Origin: Chromera velia
Taxonomy: Eukaryota > Sar > Chromeraceae
Direction of reading: 5' to 3'
DNA: 64,000 nucleotides
Assembly (NCBI GenBank): GCA_018398765.1
Contig: JAHBMJ010002465.1
Location: 37,936 to 101,935, forward strand
Shown: positions 4,702 through 22,100 of the stretch, piece after piece
Numbering within the stretch: the first letter of the stretch is position 1
Layout of the letters: each line of letters begins with the position of its first letter
Translations under genes and position numbers: made by a program
Notes under the pieces: model-generated
The model's input: only the letters and a program-made list of their open reading frames with translations
What the model was told of the DNA's origin: nothing
Database searches by the model: none

Positions 4702-6213
4702 TCACTTCGGCTTTGCCTTCTCCTTGCTTTTCTTGTCTGCCAACCAACTCCCGAAACCGCTCCACGTGAGAATGAACGGATGTCTCAGCAGCGTGTCGAT
4801 GGAGGGCCGCTTTTTGATATCTCTCTGTAAGCACATGGCCACAAAATCTCGGAGGGGCTCCGAGAACCTGCAACAGCAACAGCAACAATGGCGTCAGCAG
4901 CGAATAAGGCTTTAGACGACGAAACGCAGTCGATCTAGTGATGTCTTCTGATGAAAACAAACAGAACCAGGACGGAATCAGAATGGCCGACGTGTAGTAC
5001 ATGAGTGTCACACTGTTACCTGGAGGGATGCATCACATTCATGAGCAGGACTGTCACGCACAAAGTCTCCCACACGCGGATCGGCCTCTGTATGCTACGG
5101 AACATAGAAGATCCAATAAAAGAAGCCATCTGTCTAGGCAGAGAAAGTACTTTTTTGAAGGCAATCGGGAGCTTGTGAATGAGGGGAAGAAGTGAACGCA
5201 AAATAAAAGAATCGTGCCGTTGTCTACTTGACGAAGGAAAAGAAGAAAGGCGAGAACATTTGCAACCAAGACCTGTGTCCACAAAATCGATCAGGGCATT
5301 TCTTCCTTTCTTGGTGGTGCTCTGTAGATTCCGGTACGTTGACTCACTGACTGACTGACTTTCCGTTGTCCGGCAGCCTGGGCTCGGGCTTCTTGCAGAG
5401 AATGTCGTAGATCATCACGGGGCTTGCTGTCGGTGGGACGGGGTGCTTACCCGTCGCCAACTCATAGATCACCATACCGAACGACCAAATGTCGGCATCG
5501 GAGGAGTATTCGTCCCCCATCACTCGTTCGGGACTCATGTAGACGTGTGTGCCTACATAAGTGTTCAAACTGGAGAGATCGGAAGTCTGTTCAACGAGCT
5601 TCAAAAGGCCAAAGTCTGTCAGCTTGACCTGCCCACTGGTGTTGATCAGAATATTCGCTGGTTTGATGTCACGATGCATGGCCTTTGCTTTCTCCAGAGC
5701 CTTCAGGCCCGCAAGAGACTGGCGTGCAATTGACGCAAGCAGGGGCTCTGGAAAGTCATAGGGGTCTGTGGTGTTGGACACGAGATCGCGGAGCGTGTCC
5801 AGACTTCCGAAATCCATCAATTCGAGGGCAATGTATATTTGACCCTTGTCGCAGTAGACACCGTGAAAGTCCACCAAATGAGGATTGGGTTTGATCGACA
5901 AAAGTCCAGCAAGGTCTTTCCGGAGCTGGTCTCTCTTCCCCTTCCCCTCCCAATGCACAATCTTGATTGCCAGCTTCTTATCTGATTCTCGAAGCTTTCC
6001 GTGCACGACAACGCCACCTGCACCGGACCCGATTCTCTTTTCTGGGAACACCTCGATCACGGGTGCTTTTGCGAAGGACTTGATGGTGAAGCCTGAGGTC
6101 TTGTCGAGGATTGATCCGTCTGGTGCCATAGAAAAGGAAGTTTCGTTCTCATCATCCTCCTCTTCCCCCAACACAAGCATCGGACCCAAACCCAAGCCAC
6201 CTGGCTTTGACAT
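4702..6213 (-). CDS. MAPKK-like (STE7 family) protein kinase
   Basis: Two exons, 6213-5360 and 4867-4702, join in frame across a 492-base intron to give 339 residues. The protein kinase landmarks are complete. The glycine loop is GSGAGGVV at about residue 62, the ATP-binding lysine is in AIKIV, the catalytic loop is HRDIKPANIL, and DFG follows. After the activation loop, which holds candidate Ser/Thr phosphosites (SDLSSLNTYVGT), comes VYMSPER. The 'G-T-x-x-YMSPER' form is typical of MAP kinase kinases. The second exon adds the end of the C lobe (FVAMCLQRDIKKRPS). The length fits a compact MEK of about 340 residues with a short acidic N-terminus. It probably phosphorylates a MAP kinase in the cytosol. 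The start is the first ATG of the frame. The gene is divergent from the 14-exon gene to its right. Confidence 0.85.
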
Positions 6214-6809
6214 TACGGCAAAGCTTGTCTTGCCTTGGAAAGTCTCGAAGAGTGGAAAAGCGAAAAAACTGGATATGTATGTATAGGATGCTGCTGAGGT
6301 TCACAATGAGTCTTCAATTCAGAAGATGGAAGGAGGTGAGACGAACTGTTCGAGACTGAACACAAAACCCCTCTTTGGATCCAAGCTACTACTATGAGAG
6401 GAGCAAGTTCCGATCACTGCACGCGATCGATCGACGTCTTTTGATTCACTCAAGTTTGGATTGGGATTTTTCTGATGTACGTAGACGGCTGGCCGCAGGG
6501 TCGCGATCGCGGTTTGGGTCGACCGAAGTTTTGTCAGTTCACGCGCGAAGCCGCGCGCGCGCTTCGCGAGCGCGCGCTTCGCGCGCGCGCAGCTGGTCTG
6601 CATGCATGCAACTCTTCTTACCTTCCTTCATTCTTCGCCGTTGGGAGGAAAGCTCAAACTTCCTTTCCGGCCATGAAGGGGCTTGCACCGCAGTGAATTC
6701 AGCCAAAGGAAGGAAAGCAAAGCAGCAAAAACGTTGTGGACTCGCACAAAGCTGGCAAGACTCTGCGAGAAGAAGTTATTCAATCTGCCTGACACTGAGT
6801 CCTGCGTGA
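6214..6809. promoter_or_regulatory. Divergent promoter region with GC palindrome and GCATGCATGC
   Basis: This interval lies between the starts of the kinase gene (minus) and the cassette-exon gene (plus). At about 6541-6592 it holds an alternating-GC block with inverted arms CGCGAAGC/GCTTCGCG and two direct copies of GCGCGCGCTTCGCG. A CTGCATGCATGCAA motif follows at 6598-6611. No coding exon is supported. A bidirectional promoter role is inferred from position. Confidence 0.5.
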
Positions 6810-6860
6810 ATGTGGGCTGGGTGTCCTTCCTACCCTTACCCTTCCTCCGCTGGGAGGGAG

Positions 6861-9800
6861 ATGGGTCGCGTCCTTTCAGACTTGAAGGAATCCTTTGAAA
6901 GACTTCGTCAAGAAGCGAATTCGGGTCTTGAGGAGCTGAGAAGTCGAAGAGGTGTGCTACCTGCGAGACCGAGTTCCCCTCTGGCAACTTTTGGGAATTT
7001 GCCCCCGTCCGGGTACCCCCGTCTATCCGGGGCAGCACTTGACCAAGACCGGGGTCTTTGTGATCCAATTTATCCACGTCAATGCGATCAACAGAAAGAG
7101 GATGACGAGGCTCTGGCATGTCTCACGGAGGGTCTTCGTCTCTGTCGTCAAGGAACTTTAATGGCCATGCGAAGCCGAAAACGGTCCCCTTCTCCCTTTC
7201 ATCCGCATGCAGGAGGAGAACAAATCATCAAGGGGATACCAGACGGATCTAGTCCCTTTCATGAAGAGAGAATAGCCAATGCAAGCGAATTGACAGGAAT
7301 TCTCGGAGGGACACCTTACCGTGTCCAGTCACCCTCTCCCAAAAGCGCATGGAACCAGAACGGGGGCCTGCACCTGCCCCCAGAACAAAAGGAGCACCTG
7401 CAGTTACCCCAGAGAACCCCCCCCTCTGCCTTCATGCAGCAGGCCACAGGAGAGACACGCCCTCAGGAAGCCGTGGAGGGTCCCTCCTTTGACGTGTCCG
7501 TCCGCCTGCCGGCTTACCGACTGCATGCACGCGGAGACGCTCCCCAAGAGCCCGCCTCTGCCCGCAGAGCTTCAGAGCGTCTGCACAGGACAGGACAGGT
7601 CGGGGACGAGGGACCGCAACTTCGGGTCCAGGTGCGAAGCCACGGGGGCGGGGGTCAGACTTTCACTACTTCCCCTCAAATGCAGTCGTCGATTGCGTTG
7701 AACGAGGGCTCCCCAATGGGACTGCACATCAATCACCTGGACTCCCCCCCCCAGATTCGCGTGCAGTCTCTGCCCCGAGAGGCCCCTCACTCGACTGCGG
7801 GTCATGTGCTCTACAGAGAGAGGGAGACGGCCTCCCCTTCCCGTTCTCATTCTCCATCTCCGTCTCCTTCCCCCCGTTTTGAAGGAACGCGCGCGTTTCC
7901 AGAGAGAAGAGATGACAGAATGCACAGAACCCGTTGTCTGTCCACACACTCTCCTTCTCCTTCTCCGGCCTTCAACATAACCACCACACCCACCCGCACC
8001 CGCCCACCCCTGTCTGTCCCGAAGAGCAGGGGCGTGCCCTGTCCGATGGTGCCTCTTCTAGATGCTGACCGAGCTAATGCAGCCCTGTGTGTACATACTC
8101 AACCAGAACCCCCCCCAAGGCCCGGATCCCCCGCCAGAGACTCCCCTGACGTCGGGACAGGGGCCCCGGAGGGACTCAGACAGAAGGGGGGGAGAAGTAG
8201 GGTTTCGCCTTCCCCCCATGGAAGAAGGGACTATACGCCTCTGTCTGAACAGACACGGGCTGGAAGCATATTTGGACAAACAATCGCAACACATGCTGGA
8301 AGCATCTTCGGAGGGCTGCCCCCCCCCGTTGCTGACGAAGGCTTTTTAGGATTTTTAGCCACAAAAGGCACTTTTCCTTTACGCATTTCTCAGGAGTCTC
8401 CGGTGGAGGCTGCAGCCCGTCTGCAGGCCACCTCTCTCCTTCATTCCCCCGCCGAACAAACCGCTGCTGTAAAAAAGGGATCCCACGCACCACAAGACGC
8501 CTCCTCACCTTCCGGCCAGACAACCACAGTGCCCCCTGTCCCCCACGCACTGGAAGAAGACAGGTCGCCTGCACCCTTCAAGACAAGGACCTCACTGGCC
8601 ACTACCTTCACCATGTCTCCGGCAGCATTCCCGAAGTTTTCAGCTTCAGGCACTCAACCCCAGGAGGTGACCTCTGGGGTTCCTGAGGGGGCCCTCAGTC
8701 GATTGGGGGACGCCAAAGCAGCTTCACAGTCACTGGGACAGGAGGGGAGTAAAGAGGCTGCCGAGACCCCAGTAGCAGGTGTCGACCCACAAAGGTGAGT
8801 GACTTGGTTGGTAGGGGATGACTTGAATGCAACACTCACTTGCAGTTTGCGGAAACAAGGCGTGTCCGCAAATCCCTTTCAAAGACTCCATCCCCCAATT
8901 TGAACTGGTTCTGGACTTTTCTTCAGTCCCGATGCTCTTGTCGTCTGCCTTTTGTTGTCAATCGATCAACTTTCTTCCAGTCTCCCTTCTATTCCTTCTA
9001 GTCCTCCTACTCTCATACTCTTTGGACTAAAGCTAGAAATGAAGAGGGCGGAACGTCAAAATCGAAAGAAAATGTGAAAATGAGTGATCATGATTCACCT
9101 TAGCCATACACAACACAACCTGTATAATAAACAAATTGTTCATGCCTCACTTCTCTGCAGTGTAACTCCCCTTGCCATCGGAAAAGAAAAAGCAGCTTTT
9201 CCCAGCGGCGTCTGCGAAGCATCAGCCGCAGCAGTCTTGCAGGAAGAAATCCTTCCGGGTGAAGAAAAGAAACAAAACCAAAAGGCAGAAATCACTGCAG
9301 AGGCAGACGGTGCAGCTGCGATTGCCCTCCTTCAGGATCTTCTGCTTGCGGCCTCCAAGGGGGACCCTGAAGAGGCAGCACTCCTGTCGGCCCTCTCGAG
9401 AAGCCTCAAGGAAACGCACAACGCCCTCAGACAAATCTCCGGAGGGCCCCGGAATGGACTGGCAGGTCCACCCACACGGTCACTCAGATACGAGCCTTCA
9501 ATTTGTGCACCTATTTCTCTCTCTACTGAATTCCCTCCCTCCCTTCGTCGAACTCCACGTACGCAACCTTTCCTTCAACAACATCCAACCAGTTTGCAAC
9601 CTGTTGTTGTTCAAAGCAAGAGTGCATATTCAGACATTTTCATGAAAAAGTCTACTGTCTTGAAAGTCCCGCTTGTCCTTCCTCTCATTCTTTTCTTGCA
9701 GTCCTGCAAAAGAAAACGATGGAACCTCAAAGAACGAGGAGCTCCACGTAGACAAGAACGTAAAGGGCTCTGAGGTGAAAGAGACGCCAGAAAAGAAGAC

Positions 9801-12800
9801 CCAGGAGAATCCGAAGGCAGCAGAAGAAGAAAGAGAAGCAGAAGTTCCACAACAACAAAAGAGTGGGAGCAGAAGAAGCAGTGCCGCATCGGCTGCTGCC
9901 CTGGTGGTGGCGGCTCTGCGTGTGGCCAGAGCTTTGGAGAATGAAGACGAAGTTTTCTCAGAGTCCGTCTCTCTCTTTTGCGTTCATATTCTTTTGGCAT
10001 ACGCCAATTCAAAAAGGTGTCCAGTTCCTTCAAGTGGCGTCGACAGTTCACAGGGGCATGATCAATGATCTGTGCCTGCATGTGTATTGCTAAGCGGCCG
10101 AGACATTCCATTTGCTTTTCAGGTGCATAAGAAACGATCCAATTACGAAGTTTATCTCCTTTTCCTGTGTCACGAACATTCTCTTTTGAGCTCGTCTTTT
10201 CATAATTCCGCTTGTGTTCTCTTTTCTGTGAGCTGTGCAGCTCACCACCCCCTGCCCCCACTCCACCACCTGTCCAATCTGCACCGCCACAAGCCTCCCA
10301 AGCTCCTCCAGAAGCACAGGCAGAAGGGACTGTTCAAAAGGAGCAGCCTCCCATAAAAGAGCCAGACACAGGAGACAGAAGAGAAAAACCAACAGGACCG
10401 TCTCCCCCCGCTGCCCGCAGAACCCTCACACCTCCCGAGAGAGAGAAGGAGAAAGAGGGCCAACACTCTTTTGAAGCCTTTGGAAGCAGACGAAGTTCTG
10501 TGGCGAGTGCGGCTGTTGGGGTCTTCCAGTCGATGCTCTCACAGATCAGGAGAAGCAGCCAGCCGTCTCAAGCGTGGAGCTCTTCCAGGTGAGTGTTTCC
10601 TTCCCTCCCATCTCATTCTGGCTGTTTTCGCCGTGTGTCCTCTGCCATGCACGGATTACTCTCTAGCATCTGATCTGCTAGATTTCTTGCGATCCCCTCC
10701 GTACCGCTGGAAAGCTCTTCTTGTTTTCCTTTTTTTCCATCTTTTGATATTCTGCTGCGCTCCCACCCCTGTATCTCACCTCATGCAGTGGTTCGAATTC
10801 TGGCCCCACAGGCTCCTCAGAGGCCCAGCGGAGGAGCAGCCTGAGAGGCGCCTCCAAGGAGGACTCCCCCCTCCCTCCCATGCAAACCTCCACCAGACCC
10901 CCCCAGGTTCCCCCAATCCAAATGATCCCATTAGACGAGGAACGGGATTTTGTCCAAACCGGGGGGGCGGATGCGACAGACTCCCTCCAGGAAGCCCCCG
11001 TTTCCCCCCATGCAGCTGCTGTGAATGCACCAGCGCCACCTCAAGACGCTGTAGAGGCCGAGGAAAGCAGGCGCCCCTCAGTTGCGAGTCATGCACGGTT
11101 CCAGACGATGCTCTCACAGGTGCGGAGGAGCAGCCAGGCGTCGCAAGCGTGGACTGTCAGGTCAGCAGGAATTGAGAAGAAATCGGGGAAGTGAATGCCC
11201 TCCTCAATCAATGTGCCCCCATGGCTTCTTTCAAGCAAGCGGTGTGCATCATGACAGAGTACTCTTACTGCACCTTTCCCGAAGTGAAACGATCGGGACC
11301 TCAGTCTTTTGAAGTGTGCTCGAAATTTTTGTCTTTTTCTGCGTCCTTCATTTAGCGATACTAATGCTAAAACCTTGCGTGAAAATGAAGATTCTCGCAC
11401 CGCTTCTTTTTTCCCTCTTCCCTGCAGCGACGACGGCACTGCCACAAAAGGCCAGCAACAGGACCCCAATCCTCTTCCTGCCAGCTTCATGCCTACAACC
11501 GCTGTGCCTCCCCAAGAGACGAGAGACGATGAACCTTCGATGCTCCGGGCAGGGGAGGGGGCAGCCAGCAGACGCACCTCTGTCGCGAGTGGTGCGAGGT
11601 TTCAGGCGATGCTTTCTCAAGTGCGGAGAAGCAGCCAGGCCTCTCAGGCATGGACCGTCAGGTCAGATAGAAGGCAGCAGGCAGGCAGGCAGGCAGGCAG
11701 GCTGGCAGGCAGGCAAGCAGGAATGCACCGTGTCAAAAAGGCTTTGAGCCTCCCCACCTGTTTGTGTCTCTGAGAGGTTTCTTTGACTTTTCCTACAGCA
11801 TCGAGACATTGAAACCACCCATTCGAGCCCCCTTTTTCATTATTTTGCAGTGAGGCAGGGACTGCACATCCCTTGCCACAAGAAGACGATCTTCAGGCTC
11901 GACTTGCAGCCACAGCCACAACAGCAGAAGCAGCAGCACGCCCCCTTCCACCAGCACCCACAACGCCTGCAGAACCACAAAACACAAGTGAGGCCGAGGG
12001 AAGCAGGCGCCCCTCAGTTGCGAGCGCTGCCCGATTCCAGACGATGCTCTCACAGGTTCGGAGGAGCAGCCAGGCGTCGCAAGCGTGGACTGTTAGGTCA
12101 GTTGTAAGCGACAGTCAATTCTGTGAACAAACGCCGTTCAGTCAATCCCACATAAATGAATGACAAAACAGCATGCAGTCAATCAGAGGATCCAAAACCC
12201 CAAAGAGATCATTAGGAGCAGTTTCACGGGAGAAGGAACGCGCAGGACAAATCTTCGAGAAGGGATTTGAATTCTGCATTGAAGTTCACCAGGCTGCGTC
12301 GACAATTTCTCTCCCCTTTCAGACCCCTGAAGAGTCTCTTGAAGTTTCTCTCTCTTTTTCTTTCTTTCTTTCTCTGCAGTGATATTCCAACGGGACCGCC
12401 AGAGGAAGCACGTAACACGACGACAGAAGCTCTTCCACAGCATCTGGAAGAACTGGGAAGGCGCACATCTCCTTCAGGGTCTGATGACGACAATGTAGAG
12501 GTTTTACATCTTCAAAGCCACACCCAAAAAACCCCGGAGGTGAGGGGAGTCCAGCAACCACTCAACACAGACAACAGCGAGACAGGAAGAGAAAGGCCGC
12601 AAACAAGAGAGACGGACCCTGTGAGGACAGGAGAGAGACAGCAGACGGTTCCAGAGGGAGAAGCAGCAGGAGTTGGACCAGCACACGAGGCAGCACAAAG
12701 CAGAAGGAGCTCTTATGCCGGGAGCGCCATCCAGCTTCAATCGATGCTTTCACAAGTGCGGAGGAGCAGTCAGGTCCCCCAGGCGTGGACCGTCAGGTCA

Positions 12801-15800
12801 GACCGGAAACAAACGGACAAGCCAAAATGACACGTGGACATATTTCGACGTCTTTCTGCCTCCATGTAGCTTTGTTGAGTGTGCGTGTGTAGTGTTTCGA
12901 TTAGATCTTTTACGATCGACCCTCCACACCCCAACTATTCATCTTTCAATTCTCTTTTCTGCCATTGGATTGATCCATCACTTGTGTGTGTGCAGCGACA
13001 GAGGAGACGAGCCCCCGAGGCGCACGGAGGCAGAGCCCAGAGGAGACCCAGTCGAAGGAGTGGAGGAAGGCACGTTCCCTTCTGCCGTGCCCACAGGGGA
13101 CACCGCAGCTCTCGGAGAATCGACCCTCCGGGATTCCACAGAAGAAGCGCACAAACAGACAGCAGGGCCTGCAGAGGTCCCCCCCCTTCCCCATGAAGCT
13201 GAAAGAGAAGCTGCAGCAGAACCAGCATCCTCAGCAGCAGGGCCCGCATCTCCACTTCCATCTGGACATACGCCTGCACCAGCACCCCCACAAAACGCAA
13301 ATGAGGCCGAGGGGGGAAGCAGGCGCCCCTCAGTTGCGAGCGCTGCCCGATTCCAGACGATGCTCTCACAGGTGCGGAGGAGCAGTCAGGCGTCGCAAGC
13401 GTGGACTGTCAGGTCAGTGGGAAGGGGGGCAGAGGGCAATTTCTCTCATGCGTTTGTTGTCCTTCCGGGATCTTTCTCTCAATGAACGTCTTCCGTCGTT
13501 GGGCACGTTGAATAACCATGGCACTTTTCTCTTCCACAGCGTTGTGATTGAGGCCTTCAATACCGTCTCAGACAGCGATGCAAAACGTGCATGACAATTT
13601 ATGTTCCGCTGGTCTCAATGTTGCTTTGAGTGCAGTGAAGCCCCCTCGCCAGAGCACCCAAAAGGGCCCGCACCGCAGGTTTTCGGATGGGAAGGGAAAA
13701 GGGACTTGAATGAGCAACCAGAGCCGCCTGCGTCTTCAAGTGCCCCCCCTCCTGTTGCCCCCCCCACCCACGACAATTCCCCCCCTCGTTCCACAGGAGG
13801 GGGAGAGGAGGAGCCAGAGCGCGATCTGCCCTCGCAAGTGGAGCCGAGCGTGCCTGCAGATTCCCGCCTGGGAGAAGGAAGGGACGGCAGTCCCCCAGAG
13901 AGGCAGTCAGTTGATGCACAGGGGGCAGACCATCAGAGTCCATGGTCATCATCTGTCTCCGATGGGTCGTCTGCCATTCTCCACTCCGCCCTCGCAACCG
14001 TCTCCAGAGCCATGAGCGCCGCCACGGAAGCTCTGGAGATCCGAAGATCACCAAGAAGCGACAGTTCACAGGAGTCTTCTAAAGGAAAGGAGAGACAGCA
14101 GGAGTCCAGAGACTCTGCAGGCTCAAACAGCAGAGGAGAAGTTCATCAGCCTCTCAGCAGGCCGACAGAACTGGAGGGAGAAGGGAAGTTGAACAGCCAG
14201 AAAAGGTCAGTCGGGGAAAGTTGCAATGAGATGGGATTTTCAGAGAGGTCATGTCAGCCAGGGTTGACACAATCTGGTTGGCGGTAGTCTACTTTTTTCT
14301 CTAACAAGGAAGCGCCTCTCGACTACTCTTTGTCTCTTCGGGGGTTGCCTCAATGTCCACCTGCTGTATACCTCTTACGCATGTGCATATGCGATTTTTC
14401 CCGCTCTGTTTTCTATCTTTGGACAAAACCTCGTCTTCTTCTCCTTTTGTCTGCGTAGTCATAATACCCTCTTCCCTTCCCTGCACCTCCTTTTGTTCCT
14501 TCTCTCTCAGCCAACCGTCGGCCCTTCCAGAACCTTCCAAAGACGAGAATCCTTCTGCGCCCGTCCCAGCCACCGTCCAGCCATTCCCTCAAGCAGTCAG
14601 CCCCAAGAGGGCCCCACACAGCCGTGACAACATCGAGAGCTCACAGGCGGGGGAAAGGAGAGGCTCGAATGGGTCAATCTCTTCAAAGCTCTCTGCGGCA
14701 GCGGCTGCTGCACGAATACGACGAGCCTCCAGGAACAGGTTGGTAGTGGCATAAGTCGATCAGTCGACATGTTCACCTTTGCATTCTGGACTCTGTGTCT
14801 ACCTGCCTCCCTGTGCAGTTTTGGGACTGAGAAAAAAGTTTTCATCTTAATTCGACCTGACACTTGAGAGCGATCGATCTTCTTGAATTTTGCCTGTCAG
14901 CAAATATCGGGTTGGATTCTGACAACGACTCGAAGTGCTTCCAAGAATACATTGTCCTTTCTTTCCCTTTCCTTTCCTTCCTGTCTGCAGCTTGGAGGGT
15001 CAAGGTGTCACGGACCTGTCTGGAGGCTCTGGACATGCAGTACCAGACAGGACGGAGCTTTCTGAACTTGAGCGATCGGCCAAGGGGGCTGTGGCACAAA
15101 TCCTCGTGAATGCGCAAACAAATGTAGAAGCTGGGGGGGGGCAGAAGTCAGCTGTTGAAATGGGGGGGGGGCAGACCTCAGGGCAGGTTTCGATTGCAGC
15201 AGACGGAGGGGCGGCAACAATCTCGTCAGAGGCAGTCGAAAGGTCGGTCTGGTTTTTTGTTGCCTACCTCTACTTCTGTCCCTCTATGTGCGTGGATTGA
15301 TGTGTCTCTCTGTGTGTACGTGTTTTTCTGTCAATTCTTCTGCGGGATCCTAGCTCTTTCTTTGTCTTTGTCTTTGTCTTTGTCCTTGTCTGCCTGTCTG
15401 CGTCTTCTTCATTTCCTCTTTTTCTTCCTTCCTTCCTTCCTTCCTCCCTTCCTTCCTTCCTTCCTTCCTATATTCCTTCCTTCCATGTCTGCGTCTTCTT
15501 CTTCATTTCCTCTTTTCCTTCCTTCCTTCCTTCCTTCCTTCCTATATTCCTTCCTTCCATGTCTGCGTCTTCTTCTTCATTTCCTCTTTTCCTTCCTCCC
15601 TTCCTTTCTTCCTTCCTTCCTTCCTTCCTTCCTTCCCATGTCTGCGTCGTCTTCATTTCATCTTTTCCTTCCTTCCTTCCTTCCTTCCTTCCTTCCTTCC
15701 ATGTCTGCGTCTTCTTCTTCATTTCCTCTTTTCCTTCCTCCCTCCCTTCCTTCCTTCCTTCCTTCCTTCCATGTCTGCGTCTTCTTCATTTCCTCTTTTC

Positions 15801-16368
15801 CTTCCTTCCTTCCTTCCTTCCTTCCTATATTCCTTCCTTCCATGTCTGCGTCTTCTTCATTTCCTCTCTTCCTTCCTTCCATGTCAAAAGAAGTCCTCTG
15901 TACAAAGCCCGCCTCTTCTCATCCATGCATCTGTCTCACGTGCGTTCCTTCACGCTCGCGCTGACAATGCAGAAAGGCCGCCCAAGGCCCAGAACACCAT
16001 CCCGAACCTAGGCAAGAGGCTGAGAGCAGACCTGGGCCCTCTGAAAGTCCAGCAAGCAAACAAAGTCACGAGGAGGAGGAAGAGGAAAACAGCGTCTGGA
16101 AGAGGAGCCCTCTCGTTAGAGGCCCCTCGAAGAGTTCGTTTGTCAACAGCAACGGCGGGTCTCTCAACGACATCGGGGGAGTCCTCGCAGCTGCAAGAAG
16201 CGCCTCGTGGTCATCTGGAAGCCATCGGTGGGTAAACAGCAACAAGAACAATGACTAGTTCCTGGCCTCTTTGTATTTCATGCTTGGGCGCTCTTTCTGC
16301 TCCTCACAACAGTTGTGCAGTCAAAAAGGACCGTCTGACCTGGGAATTCACGATTTGACATTTGCTTG

Positions 16369-16452
<84 letters not shown>

Positions 16453-17058
16453 TGTGATTGCAGTCGAGGGAGCGGGGCTTCTGCGGGCGCTCCCCCGGGA
16501 CCATCGCATGGCGTCCCCCTCCCCGGACTTGCACCTGACACCGCTGCGTCGCCCTCAGAGGCCATGCAGAGGGCGGCACACGAGGCCGTGGAGGGGATCG
16601 CCATCGCTGCTCAGGCTCGCGTTTCCGAGATGGCAGAGAAGGAACCGGAGAATTTGTCAGGCCCTGCCTCCTCCTCTTCTGCAGTCCAGGGGGTCACACG
16701 AGGTGAGAATGAAGGAGTGGCTGCTGAGTCAAAGACTGGCGACGCGTCTCCGTCAAAGGCCCTGGATCGTCGTTCTCTTTCGTTTGCACCGCAAAGGGAA
16801 GAAGAGCAAAAGGAAGACAAAGAAGAAGGGCATGAGGAAGAAGGGGGCAGTCCGGCTTCTCGAAACTTTTATGGGTTCAGGGACCAATCCCGGTACTCTG
16901 TTGCTTTCACGGACCGCACTGTGGCCGCAGTCCCTGTGGTTCCTCTGGACATGCGGGCCTCTTTTTCCCAGTCCCGTATGACGTCAGAAGCGGGGTCGCG
17001 CTCCTTTTTTGATTTGCCCACAGGGGAGGCAGCAGAGAGCAACTGGAATCCCTTCTGA
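6861..17058 (+). CDS. Large disordered protein with serially duplicated phospho-site exon cassettes
   Basis: I do not recognise the family. Fourteen exons close in frame: 6861-8794, 9161-9478, 9702-10016, 10241-10588, 10789-11160, 11428-11661, 11851-12096, 12380-12796, 12996-13412, 13636-14205, 14511-14738, 14991-15242, 15973-16227 and 16464-17058. They give about 2166 residues. Every one of the 13 introns is phase 2. Exons 4 to 9 each end with one 33-residue module: SRRPSVAS, then ARFQTMLSQ, then VRRSSQASQAWTVR. Each is preceded by a different Pro/Ala/Glu-rich linker. Exons 3, 10 and 11 carry weaker relatives. RRPS and RRSS match basophilic (PKA/AGC-type) kinase sites. Exon 1 encodes an SP/RS-rich region, and the protein ends in NWNPF, an EH-domain-binding type of terminus. 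An in-frame ATG at 6810 is an alternative start. The donors of exons 2 and 3 are the least certain. A cytoskeletal or membrane scaffold is possible but unproven. Confidence 0.72.
10484..13412 (+). repeat. Six-copy exon-end cassette array
   Basis: The 3' ends of six consecutive exons, finishing at 10588, 11160, 11661, 12096, 12796 and 13412, encode the same module and then a GTGAGT or GTCAG donor. Copies ending at 11160, 12096 and 13412 are nearly identical at DNA level over roughly 110 bases, including the GAGGCCGAGG lead-in. Copies ending at 10588 and 12796 have diverged more (for example QSMLSQ for QTMLSQ). This is duplicated coding DNA rather than a satellite. Confidence 0.88.
11678..11722 (+). 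repeat. GGCA microsatellite
   Basis: An intron between two cassette exons contains a GGCA tetranucleotide tract with a few substitutions. Confidence 0.85.
15396..15890 (+). repeat. TTCC-rich intronic minisatellite
   Basis: About seven units of roughly 65-80 bases are arrayed head to tail. Each unit has a conserved core reading ATGTCTGCGTCTTCTTC, then ATTTCCTCTTTTCC, then a variable number of TTCC tetramers. The array lies in the intron before exon 13 of the cassette gene. Both strands give long artificial frames (Lys-Glu-Gly-Arg repeats on the minus strand). Confidence 0.9.
16370..16456 (+). repeat. Compound TGTC/TC/TG microsatellite at a 3' splice site
   Basis: TGTC, then TC, then TG runs lead directly into the acceptor of the last exon of the cassette gene (exon begins 16464). 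The repeat therefore supplies the polypyrimidine tract. Confidence 0.85.
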
Positions 17059-19112: not shown

Positions 19113-22100
19113 TCACAACCCAACCACTGCTGCTCCTTCCCCTTCCCTTTGCCGACTCTCAAACGACCTGCCAAGCAATCGTGGCGGAGGTGCACATGCA
19201 GAACCCGAAGCAGGCGCACTTGACCTGCCACCCGCTGTGGTCGGTGCTGTTGATGGTACTGCAGTACGTGGTTTCGCTCGATTTTTATCTGCAGCCGCGT
19301 CTGTGGACACGCTCCCACGGGTTGCACCACGGGATGATGCCTCCCCCCCCTCTCCATTCTCGACGTCTGTGTGGGGCGCTTTCCTCCATTCGTACCACCT
19401 TTTCAGCAGCGGATTGATTTCTCTCCACCATCTGCCCCTCGGCTGACAAAGCGGGACAACTAACAGTGGCACTACAGGGAGGAGCGCGATGATTACCGTT
19501 ACAGGACACACCCACCGGGTGGACTCTCTGCACTCCGGAGAAATTTGACTGTTTACCTTCTTGCAGACTAATTCAGCAAAATCATACGTGGCGAGGTGGT
19601 AGACAGCCATACCGAAGAGACATGGAAGTATGGCCGCAGCAAGCCAGAACATTCTTCGGAGGACCGGATTTCTGTCCATTTCTGCTGCTGAATTGCCAAA
19701 CCTCATTCAATCATTTTCAGCAGCCGTGCAATAGTTGATGAAGCGTTTACTTCCATAGAAGAACACAATTCCCCCACTTTTGACGGAGAGAATGAAGAAC
19801 AAAGCCACCGAGAGGTGACTGCTTACTATGCCGAGATAATACAGTCCACCCCCCGTGACAAAAAAAAGACCCAAACCAAACGAACTCACGCAAACAAGTG
19901 CGAGCACAACCCACCTCTTCCAAATAAAACCAAAATCTCGCAGACCGTACTCAACAGTATCGACCACTGTTTCAATCAAACCGAAAAGCGAGCCAAAACC
20001 CAAAATGTCCAACGCCAGGAAGGTTACGATGCCCCAGAATACTGGAGCAGGCATGAGGGCGAGTGCTGTGGGGAGAGATACAAAGGCCAACTGAACCCCT
20101 TCTAGGTTCAATTTTGAAAGTGGGACGTCTGTATGGTGGGAAACAAACCCAAGGACAGAAAACACCAACCCCCCAGCTACGAACGAAATAGAGGTATTTA
20201 CGACCGGAACCAAATAGGCGAGTTTGAAAACTTTGTAGTCCTTGTTCCACGTACTACGGGCAGCAAACGTGGTGTATGCCCCAAACCCAAGAGACAGAGA
20301 AAAAAGTACCTGCTCCCCCCACCTCCAACAATCGATTCCATTCAGGTTGACAGAAGAACTTTATCCCCTCCCAACTGCCCTCCAGCGTGACTGCCCTGAC
20401 AAGAATTGCGAGAAGGATAGCGGGCGGAACGAACGCTGTGGGGTATACACACTTTCGAAAGGATTCCATACCCCGGAACAAAACCCCCCAAACTACCGCC
20501 CAACAGACTCCCAACGCGATCACAAGTCGCCCTTGGAGATCGCCGATCTCGTTCCCACTCTCGCTGACGTTGAACACTGTCTTCATCAGATAGAACTCTG
20601 CCCCGCTCATCTGTCCCTTGTCGCATTCAGCACACGCGGCATCCCACGGCAGCTTCGAAGCCATGGAATTAAAAAGGTAAAGAAGACAGATCCCGATGAA
20701 CACAGTGTACCAGACCCCCACGCAGAAGGAGAGCATAGAGGCTGCCAGGCCAGCTCCCGAGGTCCAGGGAGACAGGCCCCTCCAGATTTCCGTCACACCT
20801 GTGGGCAGGAAGAAAAAACAACCGAATATGCTCAAGACCGCTGGTAAGGCACACAGAACGTGCAAAAACACCGACTTGAAGGTACACAAAGATATTTGAA
20901 GTAAAAGAACACTTTTCCTGCCGACCTTGGCTGTTGTAGATGAATCCAATCCCCAATTCCTGAATCAGGAGGGGGACACCGAGGACGAAAGTCAAGATCA
21001 AGTAGGGGATCAGGGCGGCCAGTCCACCGTTTTGGTGAATAAAGTCGGGAAACCTCCACACATTGCCAAGGCCGACGGCATAACCGACGAGCGCGAGGAT
21101 CAGCTCAGTCTGCAAGAAGGGAAATGGCAGTGAGCCATGGAGGGGTGTGAAGATCTGTATGAGACACGCGGTCAGATCAAAAAGAGGCACTAGGGTAACG
21201 AGTTGAGGGGCAAACCATCGATTCATTTCAAAATGAAGTATGAGGGAAAGACTGTCCCTCCGAAATAGTATGAGAGGAACAGCAAAATTTCGTCGGAAAA
21301 GGGCAGCTCAATCAAGTGAAATGATTTCATTTTCGGTACATGAAAGAGAGAGACAAGCTCAGATGAGACGAAATTGCCGTTTGAGAGGACGGACCGGGTT
21401 TTTCCACTCCTTTTTCTGGGGTACGGATTCAAGAAAATCCGGAGCAAGGTCGGCGCAGATAGGATTCGGAGCCGTCGGGACTGGCGAAGCATCTGGGGTC
21501 AGCTTCAACGTATCGGCGGGTTTCGCCACTATGCCACCCCGTACGGTAGACCCAGAGCTTTCCGTCTCTTGCCCTGCTTCGCTGCTGGCAGCCTCGCCTT
21601 GACTCCGCACCTCCTGCTCTGCTGTACCCCCCGCAACCTCGCCTGGGCTTTGTATTTGCTGCCCTGCTTCACTGCTGGCAACCGGCTCAAAGGCTTCTGC
21701 TTCCTGTTCTTCTGCAGACCGCCACCTAGTATCAATCTCCAACCGCTGGGCACCCTCGAGCGCATCTGCTATCGCTTCACCAGCGAGAGACTCCATCAAA
21801 TGTCCTCCTAAAGCGTCGGATGAAGAGGACACAGCAGACGGGGAGGAAACATGCCCACTGAGAGTTATTGGAGCCCTGGTGAAATCGTTTCTCTGCCTGT
21901 CCTCAGAGCTCTGAGGAGACGATGGAAAGGAAACGGGAGACGGGGGGGGGTCTGGTCGCAGTGTGCTGAGACTCGGTCCGGTGGCCCTACGTGCCCCTTG
22001 ATGGACTGAGGAGACGAAGGTCGTGGTCTCCGAAGCATTGGTGAGATTCAACAGAGAGTCCGTGAAGTCACTGTGTGATGCAGCTAATTGTTCTATCAGG

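Follow-up and report, generated by a model that had tools for sequence, protein, structure and literature searches.

An apparently lineage-specific, constrained RRxS module at the ends of six successive exons in a Chromera velia gene

Background

The 64,000 nucleotides of Chromera velia DNA analysed here (GenBank assembly GCA_018398765.1, contig JAHBMJ010002465.1, positions 37,936 to 101,935 of the forward strand) hold a gene in which a short peptide with two RRxS sites recurs at the ends of six successive exons. This whole stretch is called the window, and positions are counted from its first letter. What is this peptide, how did it come to be repeated, and what might it do? A first-pass annotation had described the serial duplication of an RRxS-rich exon-end cassette in a low-complexity protein, and that description has stood. 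The repeat appears to be real, constrained between its copies, lineage-specific and undescribed, and the gene that carries it is referred to below as the module gene.

Results

The module and its constraint

The module gene was modelled by hand from splice sites and open frames as 14 exons (X1 to X14) on the + strand, 6861-17058, which give 2,166 amino acids in a single open frame with a lone stop at the end. Splice sites were picked by eye so that the frames stay open, and the model is read from DNA alone. The six modules lie at the 3' ends of the successive, same-strand exons X4 to X9, as had been claimed, and read approximately SRRxSVASAxxFQxMLSQVRRSSQxxQAW. They occupy 10485-10577 in X4 (10241..10588), 11066-11152 in X5 (10789..11160), 11567-11653 in X6 (11428..11661), 12002-12088 in X7 (11851..12096), 12699-12788 in X8 (12380..12796), which is the most diverged copy, and 13318-13404 in X9 (12996..13412). 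From S to W the module measures 29, 30 or 31 residues, not the 33 first given, and the indels, no longer than two residues, fall between SVAS and FQ. The exon ends 11 nucleotides (nt) after the W in X4 and 8 nt after it in the other five.

Nineteen alignment columns are invariant in all six copies, including the R, R and S of both RRxS sites. Thirteen of the 19 fall in Q.MLSQ.RRSSQ..QAW, and in the N-terminal SRRxS all four specified residues are invariant as well. Of the three consensus blocks proposed at first, MLSQ is found in every module, SRRxSVAS in five (X8 has SRRSSYAG) and VRRSSQASQAW in four (IRRSSQPSQAW in X4, VRRSSQVPQAW in X8). Against a profile built from them, the six modules score 53-67 bits, by construction. 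Exon X3 (9702..10016) has SRRSSAASAA, resembling the N-terminal part of the module, and this partial copy scores 6.4 bits, a value matched by none of 200 shuffles. When degenerate modules were sought with the profile in X1, X2 and X10-X14, none stood out, and 7 to 195 of 200 shuffles scored equally high.

At the DNA level the modules fall into one close group and three diverged lineages. The group consists of X5, X7 and X9, whose pairwise comparisons give 81, 81 and 85 identical positions out of 87 nt and which bear out the three near-identical copies reported earlier; X4, X6 and X8 each represent a lineage of their own. In codon alignments, the 12 of the 15 copy pairs that run between lineages have proportions of synonymous differences (pS) of 0.55-0.93 and of nonsynonymous differences (pN) of 0.05-0.22; examples are X6/X7 (pS 0.82, pN 0.05) and X5/X6 (pS 0.69, pN 0.06). 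With only 29-31 codons per copy, and with copies that are related to one another, values of the synonymous divergence dS are rough. The combination of high pS with low pN indicates that the module peptide is under purifying selection, and there is good sequence evidence that it is translated and retained.

Spread of the module

All 13 introns inferred in the model are in phase 2, so that gain or skipping of an exon would keep the frame. As a control we used the 14-3-3 genes of the same genome, two genes only, of which one has phases 2,0,0,2,1,0 and the other 2,1,0 at the three junctions found; phase 2 is not, by this comparison, a general rule in this genome.

X7 and X9 share a tract (11975..12108 and 13288..13424, both on the + strand) in which 127 of 134 aligned bases are identical and which stops 12 nt inside the intron. 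The tracts of X5/X9 (129/146) and X5/X7 (104/112) are similar in kind, and their ends differ. Directly 5' of the module the linkers of X5, X7 and X9 are also alike (family D1, 81% and 75% over 161 nt), so the earlier statement that the linkers are unrelated does not hold for all of them. Beyond the X7/X9 tract the two copies resemble each other only weakly: with 300 shuffles in each comparison, the alignment score was equalled by 11 in the exon parts, by 124 in the introns upstream and by 10 in those downstream. One of the 15 intron pairs, I5/I7, beat all 100 shuffles, and in the stretch beyond the tract 7 of 300 shuffles equalled it; some faint intron homology may remain in this pair. The dS between the X7 and X9 modules is 0.10, and since the introns align poorly despite this value, duplication of whole exon-intron units at that age is unlikely. 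Gene conversion or the copying of short segments is the simplest account of the X5/X7/X9 tracts. Recent duplication or conversion, as proposed earlier, can therefore be kept for these three exons and not for the other copies. For the array as a whole, the best reading is that it spread as phase-2 exons, either whole or only at their 3' ends, were duplicated.

Occurrence outside the module gene

The searched assembly comprises 177.8 Mb in 4,040 contigs and is the only eukaryotic genome covered. At an expect value (E) of at most 10 the module profile gave six matches in the whole genome, all in the module gene. With 1,001 bases of array DNA as the query, five matches were obtained, every one inside the same gene. 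A paralogous gene is not supported in this assembly: X3 and X14 returned self-matches only, and X1 matched elsewhere over just one partial stretch. This stretch, about 162 nt at approximately 7552-7713, has an 81% identical copy with an in-frame stop codon on contig G000:C3651 (L023, L024). In the 12.9 kb scanned around the copy, no further match of the module protein with E below 0.5 was present, and by its sequence the copy is an isolated dispersed fragment.

A known domain for the module was considered and rejected, as no match to Pfam or PDB was convincing. None of the 14 exon translations reaches a Pfam gathering score. Two sub-threshold matches were listed, both far under the cut-off: MRP-S31 in X3 (E 0.18) and, at 11.3 bits vs a cut-off of 27 (E 0.27), DUF7134 over the module of X4. 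The latter is absent in the other five module exons. The six-module profile had no match among PDB sequences at E <= 10, and a Foldseek search of the X7 model against 'pdb' gave none either, to which little weight is attached since the model is of low confidence. The earlier remark that no described domain has this pattern thus holds within the Pfam and PDB libraries searched, which include no chromerid proteome. Relatives in the collections viral_contigs and genome_contigs amounted to 80 and 82 pattern matches, none of them confirmed, which is a weak test as these collections hold viruses and prokaryotes. In the literature searched, with most subscription journals outside its scope, pieces of the module sequence had no full-text match, and among the papers listed no title or start of an abstract described the module or its gene and no title announced a Chromera phosphoproteome. 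As a separate observation, the assembly has seven IMCp (alveolin) matches, which supports an alveolate origin, and 14 control genomes have none.

Phosphorylation sites and candidate readers

The protein contains 19 RRxS motifs vs 1.64 expected from shuffles. Twelve are in the modules, at two per module and never three, where at least a dozen candidate sites had been announced beforehand. The seven outside the modules also exceed expectation (1.09), and none of 2,000 shuffles had as many. By consensus only, all 19 are predicted PKA/PKG sites. According to the parts of PMC5746546 drawn on here, the consensus sites of PKA and PKG are very alike, and the kinase can therefore not be named. The genome has 16 cyclic nucleotide (cNMP)-binding matches at E <= 1e-5, a count in which kinases and channels are not told apart.

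In all six copies the second RRxS serine follows the first at a distance of 18-20 residues. Pairs of 14-3-3 sites are typically separated by more than 15 residues, as stated in the portion of PMC4495292 available to us, and each of the six modules has such a spacing. Matches to 14-3-3 itself were found at two loci in the genome. S/TQ dipeptides number 30 in the protein vs 24.7 expected, with 17 of the 30 in the six modules; the SQ of MLSQ and that of RRSSQ are present in every module, and the third place is VPQ in X8. Three RIIa matches were listed for the genome, one of them above the cut-off, although domains split by introns could escape this search. That one match (L012, G000:C1009:28070-31162) consists of an RIIa domain followed in the same frame by EF-hand-like sequence. 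An LC8-type motif was considered and dropped because the residue following SSQ varies between A, P and V.

The central part of the module had been called amphipathic, and a membrane- or calmodulin-binding role had been suggested for it. Neither is supported: depending on which of the five distinct modules is taken, a fraction of 0.14-0.41 of the shuffles that preserve composition have a hydrophobic moment at least as large, which places amphipathicity at chance level, and none of the exon translations, 14 in all, has an IQ match. AlphaFold2 modelling of exon X7, aligned with its five sister exons, produced a helix over residues 56-77 at low confidence (mean pLDDT 59.2). About 60% of the 2,166-residue protein consists of S, A, P, E, G and R, and from this composition and the low-confidence model of one exon the protein is apparently disordered.

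Discussion

Possible functions of the module

The reading that we tentatively prefer is a lineage-specific multivalent docking array that would be switched by an RRxS-directed kinase and possibly read by 14-3-3. A kinase of this kind (PKA, PKG or another AGC kinase) would phosphorylate both serines of each module, and phosphorylation would toggle the multivalent binding of a partner. The partner could be a dimeric phospho-reader, with 14-3-3 as the leading, unproven, single candidate. Since the exons are symmetric and in phase 2, the number of modules could be altered, by the cell or in evolution, with the frame intact. The repeat, its constraint, the uniform inferred intron phase, the local copying and the finding of no second copy in the genome come from the sequence; expression, phosphorylation, the partner and alternative splicing are what we infer. 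In a more elaborate form, which we consider unlikely, copy number would act as a dial on a new, lineage-specific phospho-docking motif: interchangeable phase-2 exons, variably spliced and homogenised by short conversion tracts, would fix how many phosphorylated binding sites there are and thereby set the switching threshold of a scaffold.

Several results weigh against the preferred docking array. Neither this genome nor the virus and prokaryote collections yielded a homologue beyond the module gene. A 14-3-3 regular expression marks two sites in the X7 module, vs a shuffle mean of 2.02, and the serine of RRPS in X5, X7 and X9 is left unmarked. An out-of-frame peptide was likewise partly helical in AlphaFold2 (mean pLDDT 73), so that the X7 helix counts as weak evidence. 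The conserved QxMLSQ and QxxQAW exceed what a kinase or 14-3-3 consensus would ask for, which suggests that these residues are read by a partner. Such a partner is the core of a possible, if doubtful, alternative, a docking peptide independent of phosphorylation, in which one partner would read QxMLSQ[VI]RR plus QAW, perhaps as a helix, and the RR pairs would be basic contacts whose likeness to RRxS is secondary or tunes affinity. The concentration of 13 of the 19 invariant columns in the C-terminal part and the low-confidence X7 helix agree with it; the hydrophobic moment within shuffle range, the equal invariance of all four specified residues of the N-terminal SRRxS and the excess of RRxS outside the modules do not.

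The presence of a possible helix adjoining RRxS sites would suit a scaffold like the A-kinase anchoring proteins (AKAPs), in which the module helix anchors the docking domain of the PKA regulatory subunit beside substrate sites. We regard this as hardly probable at all, given that amphipathicity is at chance level in five of five distinct modules and that the sole RIIa match above the cut-off, in a search that could miss domains split by introns, sits with EF-hand-like sequence and is, by our reading, not a PKA regulatory subunit; the docking domain is moreover missing from the Plasmodium PKA regulatory subunit as far as the consulted part of PMC5746546 goes. If LSQ, SSQ and ASQ of the modules were targets of an ATM/ATR-like kinase in place of an AGC kinase, the location of 17 of the 30 S/TQ dipeptides inside modules and the two SQ present in every copy would be explained, but the total is near expectation and X8 has lost the third place to VPQ, which makes this very improbable. 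The tracts common to X5, X7 and X9 would also be produced by a low-function repeat that grew by recombination and was kept alike by gene conversion. This is rather improbable, since pN is well under pS where synonymous sites strongly differ, and recent homogenisation alone cannot produce that.

Relation to known systems

The module gene is best placed, on these features, as a variant among known multisite disordered proteins. Genes assembled by the duplication of symmetric-phase exons are a known class, and the module gene resembles them in that all 13 inferred introns are in phase 2 and the module ends at the exon end. It differs in that only the 3' part of the exon is alike between copies and in that the module is a linear motif of about 30 residues with no recognised fold. 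To our knowledge, the sites of the CFTR R domain are not copies of one module, unlike those of the module gene; the R domain is also part of a channel, whereas the module protein has no recognised domain. What the two share is a large number of PKA-consensus serines in a single regulatory chain, and we take the R domain as a precedent for how such a chain works, with no claim of membership (PMC8240754, in the part used here). The same part of that source describes the R domain as regulated by PKA at multiple sites, with a helix content that shifts on phosphorylation and with 14-3-3 binding to the PKA-phosphorylated sites (PMC8240754).

With tandem-site clients of 14-3-3 the module shares a pair of basic-directed serines at a spacing above 15 residues (as such clients are outlined in the portion of PMC4495292 mentioned above); the differences are a motif match at shuffle level and the presence of six units in one protein. 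In Plasmodium, a related parasite, PfAKAL is a scaffold tied to PKA and 14-3-3, according to the excerpts at hand from PMC4850634 and PMC5746546. From AKAPs and PfAKAL the module gene differs in that the module has no supported RII-binding helix and no docking domain of the PKA regulatory subunit was recognised in the genome by a search that could overlook domains split by introns.

If the gene is expressed, it provides one short motif in six natural copies within a single protein; the copies differ in age and belong to four lineages that have diverged strongly at synonymous sites. They would then show, with no orthologue needed, which residues of a linear motif are constrained, and the gene would be a testable case of how multisite phosphorylation arrays expand through exon duplication and stay similar through local copying.

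Remaining exons and neighbouring genes

The other exons, all on the + strand, complete the gene model. X1 (6861..8794) is an open frame that encodes a low-complexity N-terminal region and ends in the donor ACAAAG/GTGAGT; translation could alternatively begin at an in-frame ATG at 6810. X1 also encodes AGSIFG twice, together with SPSPSP runs. The donor of X2 (9161..9478) is uncertain, as the site at 9478 is weak and one of three phase-compatible GT sites. X10 (13636..14205) is followed by X11 (14511..14738), in which RRGS and RRAS are present and the module profile has no significant match, and by X12 (14991..15242), X13 (15973..16227) and X14 (16464..17058), with the stop codon at 17056-17058; the X13/X14 junction creates another RRGS. 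Intron 12 (15243-15972) has 730 nt, mostly CCTT-type repeats and units like TGTCTGCGTCTTCTTC.

Upstream, a protein kinase frame on the - strand (5344-6300; Pfam Pkinase, E 6e-47), MEK-like by our own reading, lies head to head with the module gene, and the likely start codons are about 0.6 kb apart. Downstream, on the - strand at 19707-20964, two frames belong to a protein of the sodium:neurotransmitter symporter family (SNF, E 3.5e-34 and 1.7e-28).

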